Position numbers and translations under genes: made by a program. 27,844 nucleotides of DNA from a virus, in the IMG/VR virus record IMGVR_UViG_3300042731_001865, positions 1 to 27,844 of that record. The stretch is one strand, 5' to 3'. The notes under the pieces were generated by a model. It saw only the letters and a program-made list of their open reading frames with translations. It was not told the DNA's origin and searched no databases. Positions 1,808 to 24,375 of the stretch are shown here, piece by piece. Numbering within the stretch: the first letter of the stretch is position 1; every line of letters starts with the position of its first letter.

Positions 1808-4800
1808 ATGTCTTTAAATAAATATACGCTTAAAGTATCTCGCCCAGAGTACTGGCAAGAGATCCATGATCTGCTTACTAGTGAGACTCATGTAGCAAAC
1901 ATTCCAGATAGATGTGCTTGCTGCTCTGATGAGAAAGTTCACAGTCCCAGCAGATCCACATACGAACTCACCCAGGAAGAGGCTGAGGAACTTGCAAACG
2001 ATTTTCGTATTGCATGGATTGAACTGTCTCCACAAGACAACCCAGAGGCATATCCTCTGCCATCTCACCATGGTCTTCCGCCAGAGAAAAGAAATGCTGG
2101 CAATGTAAAATACTACCGCACTCTGACTGGCGTTGGGTACACTGCTGGTGAAGAGAATCGTTCTAACTGGGGTGTTCGTAGGACAGGTCTGTCTACATCT
2201 CAGATTACTACCACAGGTAGTCAGTTAGCGAGAACAGATAATGTTGACTATGTATATGATGGTAGCAATGTAGATATTATTATCCATGACTCTGGTGTCA
2301 TGGCATCTCACCCAGAGTTCTTAAATGATGATGGCACTACCAGAGTAAAGGATGTTCTTCTGGATGGACCTTACTATATTGACCCAACCTTCTTCGACAA
2401 CGGTGGATACACATACACTAAGTCGGATGGCACTGTAGGTATTGCCACAGAGTCTGCTCATGAGTGGTGGAGAAATACTAACTATAGATCTCCATCTTTC
2501 TCTGGCATCGCCACAATCAATACTCCTACGACAACTTATACTGCTATAAGATCTATTGGTATTGGTACAGGCACTTCTGTCTCCCTCACTTCTGGTCACG
2601 GTACTGCTGCTGCATCTGTTGCTGCTGGTAAGAACTTCGGTCTGGCGTTCAAGGCAAACATCTGGAACATGCCTGCCATCAGTGACAATGTTGGCATGGG
2701 CATTGAGATGTCCTATGATCTGATGAAGATCTTCCACCAAAATAAACCAGTAAACTCTGCCACTGGTGTGAAGAATCCTACTGTCGTCAATGGTTCGTGG
2801 GGTTATCAGGCTGCGGCAAGAAATAGTCAATATCACTACACAAGATTTAGAGGAGCTGATAGATACCTTCTCATGAACGGGTCCTATTCGACCTATCCTG
2901 CTGACGCAAGAACCATGGTTCGTGGTTTTAACAACCAGGTTAGTGGTGCTTATAGATCATGGTCTTCTTCATCTAGATCTAACTCTACTGATGAGGCAGG
3001 AAAAGAACTCATGGATGCAGGTGTCATCTATGTTGCTGCTGCTGGTAACAATGATCAGTATGTGGGTGTAGGTTCTACCAACCCTCATAGATTAAATGCT
3101 TGTGAAGATAGGTGGTATACTGTTGGAGACCCTCGCGCAGAGTTTACTAACTATGGTAACGATCTGTGCCCCACCTCTCACAGAGACTGGATGAACCCTC
3201 AGGGTATTGGTTTCGATGCAACAGTAGACCCAGAGTTCCACCCTGTTATTAATGTCGGTGCCATCGATGACTATCCTGTATGGAGTAGTAGTATCGGTAT
3301 CGAAGAGCAGAAAGCAACTTACTCTAACAAGGGTGATGGTATCGATATCTATGCTCCTGCTGATGATATGTTGTCAGCAGGTTCACCTACCTCTGGATAC
3401 CAGGACTATCTGGTTTGGGATACTTCTGCCAAGTATGGTGCTAGTTTCTACGACGCATATTTTAATGGCACATCTGCTGCTGCTCCTGTAGTTGCTGGTC
3501 TTGTCGCATGTTATATGCAGAGATTCCCAACTGCTGATTCAAGACAGGTTAAAGAATGGTTGAGAAGTGCAGGATCTAATTCAGTAACCAGTGGTGGTTC
3601 ACAAGAACCTGGAACAACTTTCTGGGATCCTTACTATGATGGATTCTATACGAACAACTATTATAATTATGGCGATGAATACTATCTGTTCTGGACATAC
3701 AACAGAGCAATGTGTCAGAGTCCAGAGTATCCAATCAAGGTTGCATACCTGAACCCACAACTTGGTATCCGTACCGACTTAGGTGGTATCAATACACCAG
3801 GTATTAGCACAGACAATCTCCCAGAGAGGGGAGTCTTTAATGCTGGTGTTGCTCTCACCTCTACTGACTATGATCCCATTGGTGGTATTGTTGAGTCTGG
3901 TTCTCTTAAGAAGGTACACTTCCAAGTGTCTCCTAGCCCAGAGTTCACAACCATTGCATGGGAAACTAGCACAGATGATACCAGACTCACTCAGTTAACT
4001 GGTGCTCTAGCCCAGTCCACTGACTATTACTTCAGAGTCAGACATCTTTCCAATCCCGATGGTAGTTCTTTCACTGCTTATGAGTCTGAGTATTCTGGAG
4101 TTACTTCATTCAGAACATACAACCCACCACAAGGTATCTCTACTCCAGAGGTATACTATCCAACTAATGGTCTGATTCTTGATAGTGTCTATGGTCTTCA
4201 GTTAAGATCTAAAGAGTATGATCCTATCAATGGAGAGGAAACTTCTGGTACATTGAAGGCAGTTGAGTTCCAAGTTCTGAGTCAACTTGGTACGCAGGGT
4301 ACTGGTAGCAGTCCTCAGTCATATGGTGTTACGATTACTGGAGCAGTCTCTCCAGACTATTACATCATTACTGCTGTTGATAGAAATGGCGCTGTAAATG
4401 GTAATGATCCTGCTCTCACATATGATGTTGGAGATACAATCACCTTTGACTTATCAGTGCTCGGAGGAGCACACCCTCTCTATATTAGAACTACTTTAGG
4501 TGGCATGTCTGCTGGTGGTGTTAGTGGTGAGGGAACAGATACTGTAACCTGGAACACCACTGGTCTGGCAGCAGGAACATACTACTATCAGTGTGGTGTC
4601 CACCCCAACATGTATGGTGCTATTACCTTACGGGCATCTAGTGGCACACCTGATGTTGTTGTATGGGAGTCTACTGGTGACAACAATACCAGTCTCTTCC
4701 AGACTGTTGAGATTCCATTAGAGTATGGCACCAACTACTACGCAAGAGTCCGTCACATCTCTAACGCTGACGGTACTGCTCAGGCAGAGTTTACCTCCGA

Positions 4801-7111
4801 ATATTCTGCAGCAGTTCTATTCACGACTCCTGCTGAGGTTGGTAACCCTTATGGTAGAATTGCATCTACAAAGACATCTCTGCAGAATGGTGTTGTGTCT
4901 CCCGTGCTTCTCTTCGAGGCATCAGATCTTCTCGATGTTACTGTAACTGCATCTAACACATCCAATACTAATAGTTCTTTCTCCATTGGTATCTCTAGTG
5001 ATTATGGATTTAAGGACAGTGATTATATTTCTTATGGTATCGATCTACCTCGTGGTGGTAACGATATGCTTGAGAACATCACTCTCAAAGCTGGTGATAA
5101 GATCTATGTGTCGTCGTTCGATCCTGGTGTAGACTTTGCTGCATTCTCTACCAAGTTCTACAACAATGTTTCTGAAGACACAAAACTGGTTCATGGTCGC
5201 AGCAAGTCTCTGACATCTGGATTCACTCCACCTAATACCATCAATGACAATCTTGCTATCTACACTGCTAAGCAGAATAGTATAGTCACAGTTCACGCTA
5301 CGAACAGAAACACTGATAGGAGTGTTGCTATCGGTGTTGGCATCGCGTCTGGACCTGCTTCTAGTGCATTAGATTCCGACTACATTGTGTTTGGTCAGAG
5401 AGTACAACCTCTCCAAGACTTTAGAATGGATCACATCGGTGTTGGTACAGACCAAACCGTGTTCGTAAGAGCTGCAAAAGCTGGTGTATCTTTTGTTGCA
5501 TACTCTAAACCAGCAGACGAGGGTCCTTCGGGTATCGGTACTGTCGGTGATGTTAATACAACTGGTGTCGTCACTGCAACTAAGTTTGTCGGTGATGGTT
5601 CTGGACTCACTGGTGTTACCGCTATTGGATCTGGTATTGAGGTTAGAGATAGTGGTGTAGCAGTTGGTGCTGCATCTACTGTTGATTTTGGTGATAGAAT
5701 CAGCGTCTCTCCTATCTCTGCTGGTGTTGTTACAGTTACATCTGCTGACACTGTATCCATCGCACAGACTGCAAACAGTCTTGCCTCTGGTGTAGTCGTT
5801 GCTAATGCTACTAACGCACAGACTGCACAGCAAGCAGTCAATGCTACTCAGGCAGACTATGCAATCACTGCAGGTATCGCTACCATTGCACTTAGTGCAT
5901 CGATTGCTTCTGGTCTGAGAACTGATGTTCAGATCTTTACTACCAGATCTATCGAAACTACTGATAAGTTTATTGGTGACGGTAGTCTGCTGCAGAATGT
6001 TGTTGCACTTGGTTCTGGTGTTGGCATCGCTACTACTGGTGGCACAGTTGGTTCTGCGGTAACCATTACTCTCAGCACAAGTCTGGATGTAACTCCAGTC
6101 TCTGCTGGTATCGTTACTGTTAGCGTACAAGAAGTTCCTCAGGCAGTTCAAGCTGGTGTTGCAACCTACGCATCTATCGCTGGTGTATCGTCCTTCTGTC
6201 CTAACGCAGGATTCGCTACAGCGTCCACCAATGCGTCGTTCGCTGCCTTTGCTAACTTCTCCGCACTGACGGGTGCTGCAGAGACTTCTAAGAGTCTTTA
6301 CACTGAGTCTGAACTGCCATTCAAACCTCTGCCCGTTACCTTTGGTAATAAGTCTTCTAAGCACCGCTACACTGGTGTTGGATCTGATGGCACCATCAAC
6401 ATTCAGGGTTATGAAGCACCTTACTTGAGATTTGAGGTTGGTCAGACCTATCGCTTCGAGAACGCTGCTCAGCAGGCAAACTTCCCCATCAGGTTCTACT
6501 ATGCTGCTGATGGTCTTGGCGTCGGTTTTGGTACAACATCTCCATCTGTATATACAGATAGAGTTACCGAGACCTCAACATATACCGAGATCCAAATCAC
6601 CGAGGAGACTCCACAAATTCTCTACTACGGTGCAGGTATCGGGTCAACCATGGGTAGCATGGGTAACTCGATCCAAGTCTTTAACCCAGAGTTCCACAAG
6701 TTCTTAAGGGTTGGTGAGTACAAGAATCTTGCAGGTCTCAAGACATGTACACACACTCAAGTGTTCGAGGGTCGTGCTACTGCATGGTACATGAACACTA
6801 ATTTGGGTGTTGGTAACAGTGATTATGTACCTGGTGATCGTTCGCACAATGTAAGTTCCATCGAACAAGTGTCCACAGGTGTGTACACAGTGAACTTTGC
6901 AGACGCGATGAATGATGTAAACTATGCAGTTGTAATCAATGGTAGGGGCACCAATAACTTCCCAGGTGGTCTGGTAGATGCTACGGTATATGACAGAACC
7001 ACGACAGGATTTGGTGTTACCATTTACAACGGCATCCCCGCTCCAGAAGACCTCAGGGATGTTAATATTGTAGTTTACGGTGGACAAAACGGAGAGCCTA
7101 CATACCTGTGA
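1808..7111 (+). CDS. Giant tail-fibre-like protein with subtilisin-type protease and cupredoxin domains
   Basis: This 1767-residue protein is modular. Residues ~150-620 are an S8 subtilase with all catalytic elements: D161 (HDSG), H264 (GHGTAAA), oxyanion N414 (AAAGNND) and S556 (NGTSAAAP). Residues ~660-1010 are two FN3-like repeats sharing F-Q-V and YYxRVRHxSNxDG patterns; the second is interrupted at ~826-946 by a cupredoxin domain with type-1 copper ligands H889, C929, H932 and M935. Two copies of a beta-rich repeat follow (~1043-1125 and ~1160-1232), then cyanophage fibre repeats (FVGDGSGLTGV near 1262), a cupredoxin-like domain lacking the ligands (~1505-1625) and a C-terminal tip-like domain. 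No signal peptide is seen, consistent with a virion protein. The protease may process the fibre or degrade a host surface protein; that is inference. Confidence 0.85.
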   Translation: MSLNKYTLKVSRPEYWQEIHDLLTSETHVANIPDRCACCSDEKVHSPSRSTYELTQEEAEELANDFRIAWIELSPQDNPEAYPLPSHHGLPPEKRNAGNVKYYRTLTGVGYTAGEENRSNWGVRRTGLSTSQITTTGSQLARTDNVDYVYDGSNVDIIIHDSGVMASHPEFLNDDGTTRVKDVLLDGPYYIDPTFFDNGGYTYTKSDGTVGIATESAHEWWRNTNYRSPSFSGIATINTPTTTYTAIRSIGIGTGTSVSLTSGHGTAAASVAAGKNFGLAFKANIWNMPAISDNVGMGIEMSYDLMKIFHQNKPVNSATGVKNPTVVNGSWGYQAAARNSQYHYTRFRGADRYLLMNGSYSTYPADARTMVRGFNNQVSGAYRSWSSSSRSNSTDEAGKELMDAGVIYVAAAGNNDQYVGVGSTNPHRLNACEDRWYTVGDPRAEFTNYGNDLCPTSHRDWMNPQGIGFDATVDPEFHPVINVGAIDDYPVWSSSIGIEEQKATYSNKGDGIDIYAPADDMLSAGSPTSGYQDYLVWDTSAKYGASFYDAYFNGTSAAAPVVAGLVACYMQRFPTADSRQVKEWLRSAGSNSVTSGGSQEPGTTFWDPYYDGFYTNNYYNYGDEYYLFWTYNRAMCQSPEYPIKVAYLNPQLGIRTDLGGINTPGISTDNLPERGVFNAGVALTSTDYDPIGGIVESGSLKKVHFQVSPSPEFTTIAWETSTDDTRLTQLTGALAQSTDYYFRVRHLSNPDGSSFTAYESEYSGVTSFRTYNPPQGISTPEVYYPTNGLILDSVYGLQLRSKEYDPINGEETSGTLKAVEFQVLSQLGTQGTGSSPQSYGVTITGAVSPDYYIITAVDRNGAVNGNDPALTYDVGDTITFDLSVLGGAHPLYIRTTLGGMSAGGVSGEGTDTVTWNTTGLAAGTYYYQCGVHPNMYGAITLRASSGTPDVVVWESTGDNNTSLFQTVEIPLEYGTNYYARVRHISNADGTAQAEFTSEYSAAVLFTTPAEVGNPYGRIASTKTSLQNGVVSPVLLFEASDLLDVTVTASNTSNTNSSFSIGISSDYGFKDSDYISYGIDLPRGGNDMLENITLKAGDKIYVSSFDPGVDFAAFSTKFYNNVSEDTKLVHGRSKSLTSGFTPPNTINDNLAIYTAKQNSIVTVHATNRNTDRSVAIGVGIASGPASSALDSDYIVFGQRVQPLQDFRMDHIGVGTDQTVFVRAAKAGVSFVAYSKPADEGPSGIGTVGDVNTTGVVTATKFVGDGSGLTGVTAIGSGIEVRDSGVAVGAASTVDFGDRISVSPISAGVVTVTSADTVSIAQTANSLASGVVVANATNAQTAQQAVNATQADYAITAGIATIALSASIASGLRTDVQIFTTRSIETTDKFIGDGSLLQNVVALGSGVGIATTGGTVGSAVTITLSTSLDVTPVSAGIVTVSVQEVPQAVQAGVATYASIAGVSSFCPNAGFATASTNASFAAFANFSALTGAAETSKSLYTESELPFKPLPVTFGNKSSKHRYTGVGSDGTINIQGYEAPYLRFEVGQTYRFENAAQQANFPIRFYYAADGLGVGFGTTSPSVYTDRVTETSTYTEIQITEETPQILYYGAGIGSTMGSMGNSIQVFNPEFHKFLRVGEYKNLAGLKTCTHTQVFEGRATAWYMNTNLGVGNSDYVPGDRSHNVSSIEQVSTGVYTVNFADAMNDVNYAVVINGRGTNNFPGGLVDATVYDRTTTGFGVTIYNGIPAPEDLRDVNIVVYGGQNGEPTYL

Positions 7112-12714: not shown

Positions 12715-13292
12715 CACCATACGATTGCTATAGAACTTATCTTGCGGTAAAAAACCATTTTACAAAAGAGAAGTTCGACTTCTTTAAAAGTAATGGTAAA
12801 GCAAGAGCATCTACAGATGCTTTTAATAAGCGTAAAGACAAGTATTTTTTTGAAAAACTAGCACATTATAGAAATGATGTGGAAGTCACAAAATACTTTC
12901 TAGCATATTTCTTAGAAGATAAGTCATGGGTCGGTGATATGGTTCATGATAAGGGTGAGATCTACGACAATTACATGAGTAAGATGTATGATCTAGAGAA
13001 CACTTTTAGAGAGGAGTCTTCTGTTCTTTTTGAGAGCGAAAATCTCCAAAAAGTCTTTGAGTGTAAGACTGGACAGCATCCACCCGTACTTAAAAAGTTC
13101 CTAAACGGAAAAATCAGTATCGAAACCATGGTGATCTATGATAAAATACTGATGTTCTGTAAGGACTACGACAAGACACTGCTAGATCCAGTGTGGGAAA
13201 CCGTATCATTGAAAATTAGGAAGTATAAACCCTTCCTAAATATCGATGTGTTCAAATACAAGACTATATTAAGAGAGGTGATAAATGTCTAA
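12711..13292 (+). CDS. 59: Helicase loader gp59
   Basis: This 193-residue protein starts MTPYDCYRTYLAVKNHF. The start codon is TTG at 12711; no ATG is available upstream, and the conserved TPYxCY beginning requires it. FNKRKDKYFFEKLAHY (near 40) is typical of gp59, the protein that loads the gp41 helicase on gp32-coated forks and recombination intermediates. The rare start plus TTGA overlap with gp33 suggests translation depends on gp33 and keeps gp59 low. It overlaps the next gene by 8 bases. Confidence 0.88.
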   Translation: MTPYDCYRTYLAVKNHFTKEKFDFFKSNGKARASTDAFNKRKDKYFFEKLAHYRNDVEVTKYFLAYFLEDKSWVGDMVHDKGEIYDNYMSKMYDLENTFREESSVLFESENLQKVFECKTGQHPPVLKKFLNGKISIETMVIYDKILMFCKDYDKTLLDPVWETVSLKIRKYKPFLNIDVFKYKTILREVINV

Positions 13293-13626
13293 TTTTTTCG
13301 ACTCTGAACTTGTTCAGGCGGAGATGGAAGAGATCAATGATCTTCAGGCAGAAATTTACAAGGAAGCATTTAGGTTTCCAGAACTCTCTGTTGAAGAAAA
13401 GATTGAACACTTAGAACGGTTGGATTATCTCCTTGAAAAACAGGAGATTCTCTACACCCGTCTAAAACTGTCAGACGACCCCCGCGCTCAGAAAGTTCGT
13501 GACAATGTTCGGGACTCTGCTATAATGATGGGGTTCCCCAAGGACATCGACTGCTCCGTTCTCTTCTCCAATATGAGGAAGACCTTGGATTCAGTTAGAA
13601 AAGGGGTCCTTGACAAGGACAGATGA
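13285..13626 (+). CDS. DUF1825-like protein
   Basis: This 113-residue helical protein starts MSNFFDSELVQAEMEEINDLQ. The FFDSExVQ opening, the central EHLERLDYLLEKQEILYTRLKLSDDP and the final helix match the cyanobacterial family DUF1825. In T4-like cyanophages this gene is characteristically between gp59 and gp32, as here. The function is unknown; the host homologue suggests it may mimic or replace a host protein. The -35 box of the gp32 promoter lies inside its last codons. Confidence 0.8.
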   Translation: MSNFFDSELVQAEMEEINDLQAEIYKEAFRFPELSVEEKIEHLERLDYLLEKQEILYTRLKLSDDPRAQKVRDNVRDSAIMMGFPKDIDCSVLFSNMRKTLDSVRKGVLDKDR

Positions 13627-18992: not shown

Positions 18993-19847
18993 GTGCCATT
19001 ACCAAGAGCAAGGTCAACTTCCTCAATGCTTTCGTTATTTTCAAAGGTCGCAACGACCAACAACTATGAGGTTTACTTCACAGGATTTGGATCTCTGCAG
19101 AAACTGAACGGTTATATTACCAAGAAAAATCCCAGAGTGAACAACTATTTCATCACTCGGGAACTAGGTTTACTCTGCAATCGTGCTGAGCTGCCAGGCA
19201 CAAGTTTTGCTACAGCACAGATTGAAGGTGATAGAATGGGTATCACCGAGAAGTTTGCACATAGTAGAATTTATACGGATACCTCGCTCACCTTTTATGT
19301 TGACTCAGATTACAGAGTAGTCGAGTTCTTTGAAACCTGGCAAGAATTCATTGCTAATGGGTCAGGTGTAACAGACGGTGTTGATCCTAGAGAAAGAGCA
19401 TACTATCATAGGATGCACTATCCTTCAGAATACAAGGTTCAAACCATGAAGATTCTGAAGTTTAATAAAGATCACTTTAGAAATGTTCAGTATACATTCC
19501 TGAACGCTTTCCCTGTCAATGTTACCTCAATGCCTGTCTCTTATGGCAATGCAAGACTGATGGAGTGTACTGTCACATTCGCATATGACAGATACTTCTT
19601 CGGTGACATTACCTCACTTACACCAACATCTAGAGTTTCTCCTGCAACAGGTCCTGCGGCACCAGGTAATGAAGAGACTCGTGATAACTACACTGGAGCA
19701 GGTGGATACACTACACCAGATCTTAAAGGTCCGTCATTCAGTGAAGCATCTTTCAATATGGATCTAGATATTAACTACAATCTTGATGTTGGTCCACTGT
19801 TCAATCCATTTACTGACGCTACATCAGAACCCTCAGCAGAGGAATAA
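18993..19847 (+). CDS. 54: Baseplate tail-tube initiator gp54
   Basis: This 284-residue protein starts with GTG (MPLPRARSTSSMLSLFSKVA). AAAGG lies about 10 bases upstream; a later ATG at 19026 would remove the conserved N-terminus. Features include TNNYEVYFTGF, the LPGTSFATAQIEGDRMG loop, and SLTFYVDSDYRVVEFFETWQEFI, which match the tail-tube fold of gp54. In T4 it sits atop gp48 and nucleates polymerisation of the tube protein gp19. The last ~70 residues are Pro/Thr- and acid-rich and variable. Confidence 0.82.
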   Translation: MPLPRARSTSSMLSLFSKVATTNNYEVYFTGFGSLQKLNGYITKKNPRVNNYFITRELGLLCNRAELPGTSFATAQIEGDRMGITEKFAHSRIYTDTSLTFYVDSDYRVVEFFETWQEFIANGSGVTDGVDPRERAYYHRMHYPSEYKVQTMKILKFNKDHFRNVQYTFLNAFPVNVTSMPVSYGNARLMECTVTFAYDRYFFGDITSLTPTSRVSPATGPAAPGNEETRDNYTGAGGYTTPDLKGPSFSEASFNMDLDINYNLDVGPLFNPFTDATSEPSAEE

Positions 19848-19869: not shown

Positions 19870-20589
19870 ATGCCATTACCTAAGATTAGTGCTCCGACAT
19901 TTGAGCTGACTATTCCATCTACAGGAAAGAAAATTAGATACAGACCTTTCCTTGTAAAAGAAGAAAAAATTCTTGTCATTGCAATGGAAACCAATGACAT
20001 GAAGCACATTGCGAGAGCAGTAAAGGATGTTCTCTCTGCATGTATTCTGACTAGAGGTGTTAAAGTAGATACGCTATCTACATTTGACATCGAGTATCTC
20101 TTCCTCAATGTTAGAGGTAAGTCTGTCGGTGAATCGGTGGACATCCTGGTAACATGTGAAGATGATGGAACTACCCAGGTTCCTGTAACCGTGTTCATCG
20201 ATGAGATTCAGATGAAGCATGATCCTGAGCATAGTGATACTATTGTTCTGGATGATGATCTGAAGATGAAGATGAAGTATCCGTCTCTGGATCAGTTCAT
20301 TAAGCAGAACTTCAATATTACTGACACTAACGACTTCGATACATCCTTTGAGATGATCGGTAGTTGTGTTGATCTGATCTACAATGAAGAAGAGACCTGG
20401 ACACAATCTGACTATACTAAGAAAGAAATGACCGAATTTCTCGGTCAGTTGGGATCTAGGCAGTTTAAGGACATTGAGAAGTTCTTTACTACGATGCCCA
20501 AACTTCATCATGAGATTACAGTAACTAATCCAAACACCGAAAAAGAAAACACCATTGTTCTGGAAGGACTGGCATCTTTTTTCAGCTAG
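19870..20589 (+). CDS. 26: Baseplate hub assembly protein gp26
   Basis: This 239-residue protein starts MPLPKISAPTFELTIPSTGKK. The opening YRPFLVKEEKILVIAMET is the signature of the T4 gp26 family. Helical segments follow, with SLDQFIKQNF and a C-terminal domain ending in GLASFFS. In T4, gp26 acts in building the baseplate hub. The final codons tcT TTT TTC AGC TAG contain an in-phase T TTT TTC slippery heptamer (20577-20583). A -1 shift there would extend the product into the following ORF, giving a 302-residue fusion. Confidence 0.88.
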   Translation: MPLPKISAPTFELTIPSTGKKIRYRPFLVKEEKILVIAMETNDMKHIARAVKDVLSACILTRGVKVDTLSTFDIEYLFLNVRGKSVGESVDILVTCEDDGTTQVPVTVFIDEIQMKHDPEHSDTIVLDDDLKMKMKYPSLDQFIKQNFNITDTNDFDTSFEMIGSCVDLIYNEEETWTQSDYTKKEMTEFLGQLGSRQFKDIEKFFTTMPKLHHEITVTNPNTEKENTIVLEGLASFFS

Positions 20590-20603
20590 CGATGTTGCAT
20601 TGT
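20577..20603 (+). other. Candidate -1 frameshift site T TTT TTC with downstream hairpin
   Basis: The heptamer T TTT TTC (20577-20583) is in the correct phase two codons before the gp26 stop. After a -1 shift the frame reads Q-L-A and then enters the next ORF with no stop. A hairpin follows five bases later: GCGATG (20589-20594) with CATTGT (20598-20603), loop TTG, six pairs including two G-T wobbles. The hairpin holds the next ATG in its left arm. Confidence 0.65.
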
Positions 20604-20777
20604 GATCTTGTAAACTACTACAGGATCAACTTCGCCTTAATGCAGCATCATAAATATAGCTTGAGTGATCTCGAAAATATGTTCCCTTTTGAAAGGGAAA
20701 TCTACCTCACTTTGTTACAACAATATATTGAAGAGGAGAATCTGAAGGCACAACAAAATAACGGCGGAACATTCTAA
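20592..20777 (+). CDS. -1-frame extension of gp26 / small chaperone-like protein
   Basis: This ORF encodes 61 residues from the ATG (MLHCDLVNYYRINFALMQHH) and is open back to the gp26 slippery site at 20583. It contains KYSLSDLENMFPFEREIYLTLLQQYIEEEN, a compact helical module I recall downstream of gp26 in T4-like phages, where annotation sometimes links it to gp51. No Shine-Dalgarno precedes the ATG, which favours expression as a -1 fusion with gp26. Its stop overlaps the ATG of the tape-measure-like gene by one base. It may be a separate protein by re-initiation instead. Confidence 0.65.
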   Translation: MLHCDLVNYYRINFALMQHHKYSLSDLENMFPFEREIYLTLLQQYIEEENLKAQQNNGGTF

Positions 20778-22519
20778 TGGCAGCTGTACCACAAACTAAT
20801 CTTTTGCCACCTGGTAGAGCGGATACTCCTGAGGGAACTGTAGTTAACCCAGGAGCACCTGCGGGGTATATTGATGCCAAAAAGTTTGGTCGGATTACCA
20901 GAAGTATCTCCAATATCAATAAGAATCTGGCGGGGATTACCAGTCTCCTGCAACAGGATCTGGTACAAGATCAGCAGGCACAGGTACAGGAGGATCAGCG
21001 CAAGAAGCAAAGAGTAGATAATATTAAGAAGGATAAGAAAGAGAACTTTATTGAAGGTGCGATTCAAAACACCATCACTAAACCAGTTCAGAAGATGGCG
21101 AAGAAGGCAAAGAGTGCCTTTGGTGGATTCTTCAAAGCTCTCACTATGATCTTTGCTGGATGGTTGCTGGATAAGGGTGGTGATGCGTTAAAAGCATTTG
21201 CAGAAGGAGATACGAAGACATTAGAGAGTATTCGAGATAATGTCCTAAAGGCGTTTGGTGTTGCTGGTGGTATATTCTTACTGTTGAATGGTGGTATCCC
21301 ACTAATTTTTGGTGCTGTTTCTGCACTTATTGGTACAATTATAACCACAATTCCAGCAATCTTGGCACTATTGGCAAACCCTGCCGTATGGATTGCTGCT
21401 GGAATCCTTGGTGCTGGGATAGCATTAGGTGCGTTTCTGAGTAATCAGGAAAATTATAAGAGTGAGACTTCTAAAACAATTGAAGAGGCAGTAGAGAAAG
21501 AAGGAACTGCGGAAACTTTAGCAAAACTTCAGCAAGAATTAGATGAAAAAACAAAGAGAAGATCGGAGTTAAATGTTTTTAACCCACTAGAGTGGGGAGA
21601 ATACATATCTCTTGGCACAGAACTTGCTGAAATAAGAGAGCAAATGAAAGCCGTTGAGCAAGGTTATACATCTAAAGACGATCCAAATTTTCGAGCAGGA
21701 TTGCCACCAGCAAAGTCAATAGCTTCTGATATTGCTGGAATGTTGGGCGCGAAGACATTTGAGGAACCTATTTCTCAGGAGCAGAGAGCAGCCTTTGCAC
21801 AAATGGCAGTGATCTCTAGACAACTTGCTGAGAATATGAAGAAGCAAGAGGCATTGAATCAGCAAATATCTACGACTCAGGCTAAAGGTAAGAAAACATC
21901 GCTTAAGGCACAACTTAAATTGCTGAAAGAAGAGCAATTGACTATTATGAATGATGCAAAGGATAAAGTTGATAGTGATATTCTTACTGATGCTCAGAAA
22001 GCACTACTCATGAGTATTGCTCAGAAAGCATTTGAACAAGTCGAGGGACGCCCAATGACTATTGGCGATGAAGAGAGTTCGGCATCTTTGTTCAGACAAG
22101 GAGAAATGTTAGAGCAGGTTTCTCAGCATGGTCTGGAAGCACCACCACGACCAGATCCTAACCCAGCACCATCAAATAATGCACAAAGTATTCCAGTGGT
22201 TCCTTATGATCCAAATGACAAATCTTTAGAGGCTACTCTCGCGAGAGAGGAAGCTGGTTTGAATAAGGCATTGCAGAAAGAGAACATGCCACCCATATCT
22301 TCCGCCCAAAATAATTCACTGGATCTAGTAAAGCAACCATTTAAGAAAGAATCAAAGGTAACACTAGTTCCTTTTGATTACCAGAAAGATGCGAGTGGAT
22401 ATGAGGGTGATGAAAACTATAGAGAGGGTGAGGCATCTGGTATTCCAGATTTAATGACTAGTAATCCAGATAATGCTTATCTTCTGCACTTCAGATCAGT
22501 CTACGGTATTGGTAAATGA
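20777..22519 (+). CDS. Tape-measure-like tail protein
   Basis: This 580-residue protein has a coiled-coil-like helical N-terminus rich in Q/K (LQQDLVQDQQAQVQEDQRKKQ, residues ~57-77), a basic stretch, the motif GGFFKALTMIFAGWLLDK (116-133) and a hydrophobic region of several membrane-type segments (~153-220). Long helices with EEAVEKEGTAETLAKLQQEL follow, then a Pro-rich tail. This pattern fits a tail-length determinant, the role of T4 gp29 in the hub, although it has no clear gp29 motif. It lies right after the gp26 frameshift pair, as tape-measure genes do. It overlaps the next gene by 4 bases. Confidence 0.7.
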   Translation: MAAVPQTNLLPPGRADTPEGTVVNPGAPAGYIDAKKFGRITRSISNINKNLAGITSLLQQDLVQDQQAQVQEDQRKKQRVDNIKKDKKENFIEGAIQNTITKPVQKMAKKAKSAFGGFFKALTMIFAGWLLDKGGDALKAFAEGDTKTLESIRDNVLKAFGVAGGIFLLLNGGIPLIFGAVSALIGTIITTIPAILALLANPAVWIAAGILGAGIALGAFLSNQENYKSETSKTIEEAVEKEGTAETLAKLQQELDEKTKRRSELNVFNPLEWGEYISLGTELAEIREQMKAVEQGYTSKDDPNFRAGLPPAKSIASDIAGMLGAKTFEEPISQEQRAAFAQMAVISRQLAENMKKQEALNQQISTTQAKGKKTSLKAQLKLLKEEQLTIMNDAKDKVDSDILTDAQKALLMSIAQKAFEQVEGRPMTIGDEESSASLFRQGEMLEQVSQHGLEAPPRPDPNPAPSNNAQSIPVVPYDPNDKSLEATLAREEAGLNKALQKENMPPISSAQNNSLDLVKQPFKKESKVTLVPFDYQKDASGYEGDENYREGEASGIPDLMTSNPDNAYLLHFRSVYGIGK

Positions 22520-24375
22520 AGTTAGTACCAACACTAGAAGTAATTGATACTATCGATATTGGTCTAACTGGTGTTACTCAGTCAGTCCTTAGTCTGAAGA
22601 AGGTAGTTAATAAAAAATTAAAGGCAGATAAAAAGGCAATCATTGCTGCTGATCTTGCAGCGTTCAAAGCAAACGATGCTGAGAAAAAGGTTGATGCCGA
22701 AAAACTTATGGAGGCAAAGAAACCAGAATCTCAGATTGGAGCAGGTGCTGCAAATAAAAAGTTAGGATCTGGTGGTGGTCCATTCCAGAGACTTATGAAA
22801 GCTCTGGGTGCAATTATTGCAGGATTTGTACTAGACAAGTTACCTCAGATTATTGAGGAAGTTCAGCGTATTAAACTCACAATCGAGAGAGTCTTTAACT
22901 CTATCAAAAACATGTGGGACTCTGCTGTCACTGCGATAGAAGAGATAATTGATGTTGGTGAGCAACTGTGGGAAAATGTAATGAATCTGGATTTCTTCGA
23001 TAGTGAAGGAAAACTTAGAAGAGAGATTGATGATGCACAAGCTGCGGTAAAGGATGGTCAAGCTAAGTGGAGATTTGAGATCAATAACATTGAGGAATCA
23101 ATTAAAGACTGGGTAGAAGGTAAGGGTGTAGAGGATATTAAGGCAGCGATGGAGGCAGGAGGAGGTCCAGAAATAACAACATCTTCATCATCCAGTTCTA
23201 GTTCTTCTAGTTCTAGTAGCAGTAGCTCTTCCTCTGGAGGTTCTCCAGTATTATCACCACTTCAGCAGGAAGCGGCAGAACTGATTAAATCTAGAGAATC
23301 TACCACTTCTGGTGGATACAATGCTATGAATCAGGGCACTGTTCCTGATAAGAAAGGTGCCGAACCAGAATCTGGTCACTCTAAAGACATTATTGGGGTA
23401 GATCTAACATCTCTGACCATTGCTCAGGTCATGGCGAGACAGAAGACAACACTCAATAATGATGAGGGATTTGTATTCGCTGCTGGTGCTTATCAGTTTA
23501 TTCCTGGAACTCTTGAGAGTGCTATGAAGCTGGCAAATCTCAAACCTGGAGATAAGTTTAATAAGGAAAATCAGGATAGAATGTTTATCGCTCTCCTAAA
23601 AGATGGTGGGTTGGGGCATTGGACTGCAGATCCTAGACATAGAAAATATACTGACGCAGAGAAAGCACTTATCGAAAGAGCAAGACAGGAACCTGCTCCT
23701 GCACCTGGACCGCGACCACAACCAGCACCAACTGCAAACCCTGTAGTTAATAACAAACCAACAACACAACCTCTACAACCTAAAGCAGGTAATGTTAACC
23801 TGGTAGACACTGGTTATGTTGATTATAAAGGCAGAAAGATCTTATTAAACTCTACTGCAAAGGGTGGAAATGCTGTGCAAGACTTCATTGCAATGGCACA
23901 GGCTGCTGCAGCTGATGGTATTGACATTGGACCTGGTATTTCTAGTGCTTACAGAGACCCAGGCAAAAATGCTGCTACACCAGGATCTGCTAAGAACTCT
24001 TCTCACATGTATGGTGAGGCATTTGATATTAACTGGAACACCACTGCTGGTAAATGGATCAGAAAGAATGCTCACAAATTTGGATTCATACATGCAGACT
24101 ATAAAGCAACATCTACACACTTCAATTACACTGGTCAGAAGACAGAAGAACAACCTCCCAGCACTCTATTATCTTTCAATAATCCACAACCTGCCCCAGA
24201 TCCTAGTGCCCTAGAGGAACCTGAGACTCCAACCTTTGTACCTTTCCCAATAAATAAGAATAATAATATCGCTCAAGGCGGTGGAGGCAGTAAGTCTAAA
24301 GACCCACCAGCAGCTCCTAGTCGTCAAGATGATTGGGTTGCTATGTCAACGATGCTTAAGAACTTCTACACATAA
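22516..24375 (+). CDS. Tail protein with muramidase-like and M15 peptidase domains
   Basis: This 619-residue protein starts MKLVPTLEVIDTIDIGLTGV and shares the GPFQRLMKALGAIIAGFVLDK motif (89-108) with the preceding protein. Residues 223-240 are 18 consecutive serines. A muramidase-like domain follows (~250-390) with E261 (SRESTTSGGYNAMNQG) as candidate catalytic acid and AAGAYQFIPGTLESAM (~323-338). A Pro-rich linker leads to an M15/VanY-type zinc peptidase (~440-545) with SSHMYGEAFD (H497, D504) and STHF (H535). The domain pair could cut both the glycan and peptide of peptidoglycan during DNA entry. The role at the tail tip is inferred from the gp27/gp5 context. Confidence 0.82.
   Translation: MKLVPTLEVIDTIDIGLTGVTQSVLSLKKVVNKKLKADKKAIIAADLAAFKANDAEKKVDAEKLMEAKKPESQIGAGAANKKLGSGGGPFQRLMKALGAIIAGFVLDKLPQIIEEVQRIKLTIERVFNSIKNMWDSAVTAIEEIIDVGEQLWENVMNLDFFDSEGKLRREIDDAQAAVKDGQAKWRFEINNIEESIKDWVEGKGVEDIKAAMEAGGGPEITTSSSSSSSSSSSSSSSSSSGGSPVLSPLQQEAAELIKSRESTTSGGYNAMNQGTVPDKKGAEPESGHSKDIIGVDLTSLTIAQVMARQKTTLNNDEGFVFAAGAYQFIPGTLESAMKLANLKPGDKFNKENQDRMFIALLKDGGLGHWTADPRHRKYTDAEKALIERARQEPAPAPGPRPQPAPTANPVVNNKPTTQPLQPKAGNVNLVDTGYVDYKGRKILLNSTAKGGNAVQDFIAMAQAAAADGIDIGPGISSAYRDPGKNAATPGSAKNSSHMYGEAFDINWNTTAGKWIRKNAHKFGFIHADYKATSTHFNYTGQKTEEQPPSTLLSFNNPQPAPDPSALEEPETPTFVPFPINKNNNIAQGGGGSKSKDPPAAPSRQDDWVAMSTMLKNFYT

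Follow-up and report, generated by a model that had tools for sequence, protein, structure and literature searches.

The genes annotated as gp26 and gp51 in the T4-like cyanophage DNA analyzed here very probably form one tail assembly chaperone gene, from which a -1 programmed ribosomal frameshift would produce a short and a long form. The original prediction of a lambda G/GT-like frameshift, giving gp26 and a gp26-gp51 fusion, is strongly supported by a reading-frame relation kept at every junction surveyed, by a slippery heptamer found at all but one of them, by the lack of a start codon in nearly a third of the relatives, by conserved flanking stimulators, and by a homologue in which the two parts are fused in a single open reading frame. 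The 27.8-kb stretch of DNA under study (hereafter, the window) contains the T4-like cyanophage genes gp26, gp32, gp53, PhoH, and ThyX, and at the DNA level it matches Synechococcus and Prochlorococcus myoviruses most closely.

Structure of the gp26-gp51 junction

The junction comprises the following features:

19870..20589, + strand: gp26, the putative short product (TAC-N, 239 aa); PF12322 T4_baseplate, E 7e-71; phrog_150 baseplate hub, E 2e-75
20562..20568, + strand: GGAAGGA, a Shine-Dalgarno (SD)-like element located ~9-10 nt upstream of the heptamer; anti-SD pairing -6.0 kcal/mol; degenerate relative to the GAGGG of most relatives
20577..20583, + strand: candidate slippery heptamer T_TTT_TTC, in phase with gp26; U_UUU_UUN in 306/307 junctions, Phe codons fixed in 84/84
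20587..20589, + strand: zero-frame stop TAG, one codon 3' of the heptamer; equal spacing in 274/306 relatives
20583..20777, + strand: putative TAC-C, the -1-frame extension named gp51 in relatives; phrog_634, E 2e-26; C-terminal end of phrog_150, E 1e-6; aligns with the C-terminus of T4-type gp51

The PF12322 score of the window gp26 (238.9 bits) exceeds the curated cut-off of 24.5. Its last codons (20575 TCT, 20578 TTT, 20581 TTC, 20584 AGC, 20587 TAG) place T_TTT_TTC in phase at 20577-20583, precisely the ending that had been described. Read codon by codon, the -1 frame gives F-F-Q-L-A-M-L-H... and passes, as predicted, straight through Q-L-A; meeting no stop, it enters the 61-aa ORF (20592-20777). 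Both predicted lengths were likewise recovered: 239 aa for the short form and 302 aa for the fusion, join(19870..20583, 20583..20777), of which the last 64 residues come from the -1 frame. At 61 aa, gp51 in the window has no N domain, and the T4-type layout, with a second gene encoding N and C domains in one ORF, is not the one found here.

Taken alone, the heptamer is weak evidence because 19 in-phase X_XXY_YYZ sites occur among 7000 codons of the window, one other of which is also TTTTTTC (at 13293). Given that the motif by itself proves little, the evidence beyond chance is comparative.

Conservation of the heptamer and reading frame

We surveyed 307 non-redundant junctions, pooling all loci and including cultured complete genomes. 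The original prediction had proposed a check of the heptamer and the frame relation across relatives, and both were retained: gp51 lies in the -1 frame at 307/307 junctions, and an in-phase U_UUU_UUN heptamer is present at 306/307 (286 UUC, 16 UUU, 2 UUG, 2 UUA), counts that overstate the number of independent observations, as many of the junctions are close relatives. In the first 80 relatives (gp26 59-72% identical), TTTTTTC stands one codon 5' of the stop at every locus. The same arrangement is kept in phages of Sinorhizobium, Delftia, Vibrio, and Aeromonas, whose gp26 is only 22-35% identical to that of the window; a scan of viral_contigs with the Delftia phage protein matched that phage itself only.

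The site is constrained beyond its protein-coding role. The Phe codon pair at the heptamer is TTT-TTC in 84/84 cyanophage-type loci, always preceded by a codon ending in T; the ten other Phe columns of gp26 vary in this set (607 TTT:224 TTC), none of them being fixed.

Departures from the common arrangement are few. The one junction among the 307 without the heptamer (L144, 1440-1500) lacks the last ~36 residues of gp26, a loss that may reflect a deletion or an assembly artefact, and its gp51 is still in the -1 frame. In Vibrio phage K475 (L088, 2702-2723), the -1 frame stays open past gp26 and no canonical heptamer is present (ACG CTT TTT GCG TAA). At L082 (2699-2732) and 14 further loci, e.g., in Pelagibacter phage Mosig, the zero-frame stop lies 24 nt 3' of the heptamer, resulting in a longer overlap.

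Signals flanking the heptamer

Upstream of the heptamer, GAGGG occurs at 207/306 loci, with the GAGG ending 10 nt 5' of the heptamer, also in 207/306. Anti-SD pairing of this region averages -7.3 kcal/mol (97 loci) compared to -1.7 kcal/mol for random gp26 20-mers, the window being weaker than that average. The conserved Glu codon at the SD-like element is GAG in 71/84 loci, versus 31% elsewhere in gp26.

Downstream, a two-tier stem is predicted in the window:

20591..20602, + strand: outer helix, 5' arm, beginning 7 nt after the heptamer and holding the ATG at 20592; 98.8% of cells paired across the clade of the window (seven sequences), compensatory changes at one pair
20603..20612, + strand: inner helix, 5' arm; 84% of cells paired in the window's clade
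20619..20628, + strand: inner helix, 3' arm (predicted fold, clade alignment)
20638..20649, + strand: outer helix, 3' arm (predicted fold, clade alignment)

For a span of 97 nt, the predicted energy of this stem is -31.3 kcal/mol (z -4.3 relative to dinucleotide-shuffled sequences), and the fold is more stable than synonymous recodings of the same region (z -5.0, 0/100). These values run against the earlier view of the hairpin as modest and possibly due to chance. That view had correctly put the ATG in the left arm, although the stem starts 7 nt, not 5 bases, after the heptamer. Extra stability of the downstream RNA relative to synonymous recodings is general (mean z -2.8 over 285 loci, versus -0.5 and -0.3 for control regions).

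Most cyanophages share an 11-bp hairpin that begins with the final base of the usual stop codon; P-SSM2 shares both the heptamer and the hairpin, and a fusion there would read ...SFFRI... across the shift. Cells of the hairpin are paired in 82.8% of cases, compared to 26-50% when the hairpin is slid, and 42 cells are double-changed versus 14 in shuffles; the shuffle counts ignore kinship and are hence support, not probabilities. One pair varies (UA 26, GC 17, AU 8), and in the alignment the wobble base of one codon here covaries with an amino-acid-changing base of another. In the window's clade, the hairpin is replaced by the two-tier stem of 12 + 10 pairs. RNAalifold returned no consensus structure for 28 mixed sequences (alignment A1) because the clades use different stems, and a split by clade resolved this; for 66 type I sequences, it retained only four central pairs. 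On balance, we lean towards a T4-like chaperone frameshift driven by a three-part, dnaX-like signal, i.e., an SD-like element fixed 10 nt upstream, U_UUU_UUN, and a stem downstream that compensatory changes have preserved. The stem would have been remodeled into two or more architectures, namely one 11-bp hairpin in the majority of cyanophages and 22 bp in two tiers in the window's clade, with the coding sequence adapting to it.

A fused homologue in T4-type phages

A profile of the fusion matched two proteins of the T4-type phage Phi1, namely gp51 (E 3e-21), which holds the N and C domains in one ORF, and gp26 (E 4e-21), which has the N domain only. The two Phi1 proteins are paralogous (~25% identity), and in Phi1 the in-frame fusion, gp51, coexists with a short gp26 encoded separately. 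T4 genes 26 and 51 are homologous, with the domain content seen in Phi1; T4-type phages have two genes instead of a frameshift, located on opposite strands in Phi1. In the window, the phrog_150 match reaches into the gp51 sequence. The structure model of gp26 (pLDDT 83.6) gave strong matches to T4-like gp26 models and no significant match in the PDB, where the HK97 tail assembly chaperone 2ob9 reached only E 3 (probability 0.23). PDB sequence searches with the gp26 and TAC-C profiles yielded nothing useful.

Proposed expression of the gp51 frame

In the proposed mechanism, most ribosomes would read gp26 to its stop codon and release TAC-N. On reaching T_TTT_TTC with Phe-tRNAs in both the P and the A site, a minority would move back by a single base onto TTT-TTT, run past the stop, and complete TAC-NC, with the SD-like element and the downstream stem setting the efficiency of the slip. 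By analogy to lambda gpG/gpGT, the domain common to both forms may coat the tape measure protein, and tail tube subunits may be recruited by the C-terminal one. The analysis establishes the sequence, the frame, their conservation, a constraint exceeding that of protein coding, and the homology; that ribosomes slip, how often they do so, what the stimulators contribute, and which partners are bound are inferred.

An independent gp51 gene, transcriptional slippage, and sequencing error were considered as other explanations and rejected. In the first case, gp51 would be a separate protein made by termination-reinitiation, starting from the ATG that follows the gp26 stop by two bases, a very improbable reading that would fit the TAG-CG-ATG spacing in the window, the presence of an ATG within four codons in 186/306 relatives, and the calling of gp51 as a gene by annotators. 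However, the ATG at 20592 has no SD, as had been noted originally (best upstream anti-SD pairing -0.9 kcal/mol), and is buried in a stable predicted stem; the SD-like element lies 10 nt before the heptamer and ~24 nt before the ATG, and the fixation of TTT-TTC would be left unexplained. No ATG is present in the first four codons of the -1 frame in 120/306 relatives, and 93/306 (30%) have no ATG, GTG, or TTG in the first nine, making a frameshift the sole evident route to gp51 in these 93. Where it is absent, the ATG is mostly swapped for Leu codons in the aligned protein (FFRVALSH vs. FFRVGMAH), as is expected if the Met is an internal residue. The ATG is usable in the window and in ~60% of relatives, and thus some independent translation of gp51 could take place; given that the window has its own ATG, the case for a gp51 without independent initiation is, for the window alone, no more than suggestive.

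Slippage of transcription on the T run, rather than of the ribosome, could also create the fusion and is less probable still. There is a T6 run, extended to T7 in 16 relatives, but at most loci it consists of just six Ts followed by a strictly kept C (286/306), whereas the bacterial cases have been described for runs of about nine (PMC5009743), and the phase-locked heptamer, the SD-like element at a fixed distance, and the downstream stem are ribosomal signals. A sequencing error or a decayed gene that splits one ORF, as the fusion in one frame in T4-type phages might suggest, has a negligible probability and is refuted by the survey, in which the arrangement recurs throughout 307 non-redundant sequences, complete genomes of cultured phages among them.

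Relation to known frameshift systems

The abstract of a 2022 study reportedly describes frameshifting as conserved across several groups of T4-like phages. The tail assembly chaperones of such phages were identified by Vladimirov, Gautam & Davidson 2022 (Virology 566:9-15), as referred to in PMC10885494, and, judging from the title and the citing papers, their TAC-N/TAC-NC is the same kind of gene pair as the one described here. Some T4-like phages have separate short and fused genes (PRFect, PMC10885494), and poly-T slippery sites in T4-like TAC-N genes are known (PMC12846349, 2025, which cites Vladimirov et al.). The suggestion that T4-like gp26 could be a new case must accordingly be withdrawn as far as the title and citing papers inform us, both the T4-like chaperones (2022) and the poly-T sites having been reported already. 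The simplest account is a -1 programmed ribosomal frameshift that would yield TAC-N and TAC-NC in the manner of lambda gpG/gpGT (PMC5009743); this 2016 review describes G-T frameshifting as widely conserved, with T4 excepted. The frameshifted chaperone pair in the window is a well-supported further example of a frameshift known in many phages, including T4 relatives, and what may be new is the detailed anatomy of the signal and its breadth.

The gene pair in the window resembles lambda G/GT and P2 E/E' in arrangement and proposed mechanism and differs in its heptamer, U_UUU_UUC; the match to the HK97 chaperone fold was not significant. An upstream SD-like stimulator and a downstream stem-loop are also features of E. 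coli dnaX (PMC5009743), although frameshifting leads to a shorter product in dnaX and would lead to a longer one in gp26/gp51.

In cyanophages, the gp51 region is routinely annotated as "baseplate hub assembly catalyst", and no gene is annotated there in S-CAM8, ACG-2014d, and S-CAM1. Based on the sequence comparisons, the gp51 frame of cyanophages is almost certainly the C-terminal part of the frameshift product. Annotation corrected in this way would give marine T4-like phages a tail-building machinery like that of long-tailed phages in general. The locus varies widely in nature, which makes it well suited for studying the evolution of frameshift stimulators.

Neighboring genes and other observations in the window

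Two genes flank the pair:

18993..19847, + strand: tail-tube-like gene, upstream of gp26; PF23849 Phage_TTP_2, E 9e-19; phrog_45 tail tube, E 2e-41
20777..22519, + strand: 580-aa gene after the gp51 ORF, where a tape measure gene would be expected

The upstream tail tube gene is confirmed by both Pfam and PHROG. The downstream 580-aa gene had no match in either database, and its position suggests a tape measure protein.

Elsewhere in the window, the second in-phase TTTTTTC lies close to the start of an ORF at 13285 and is probably due to chance. A 1767-aa ORF (1808-7111), large for a phage protein, contains a subtilase domain (PF00082, E 8e-21, residues 152-589), and an NAD-dependent epimerase/dehydratase-like gene (PF01370, E 1e-19) is encoded on the minus strand at 952-1737. 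Near the tail genes, a 619-aa gene (22516-24375) shows a weak C-terminal match to M15 peptidases.
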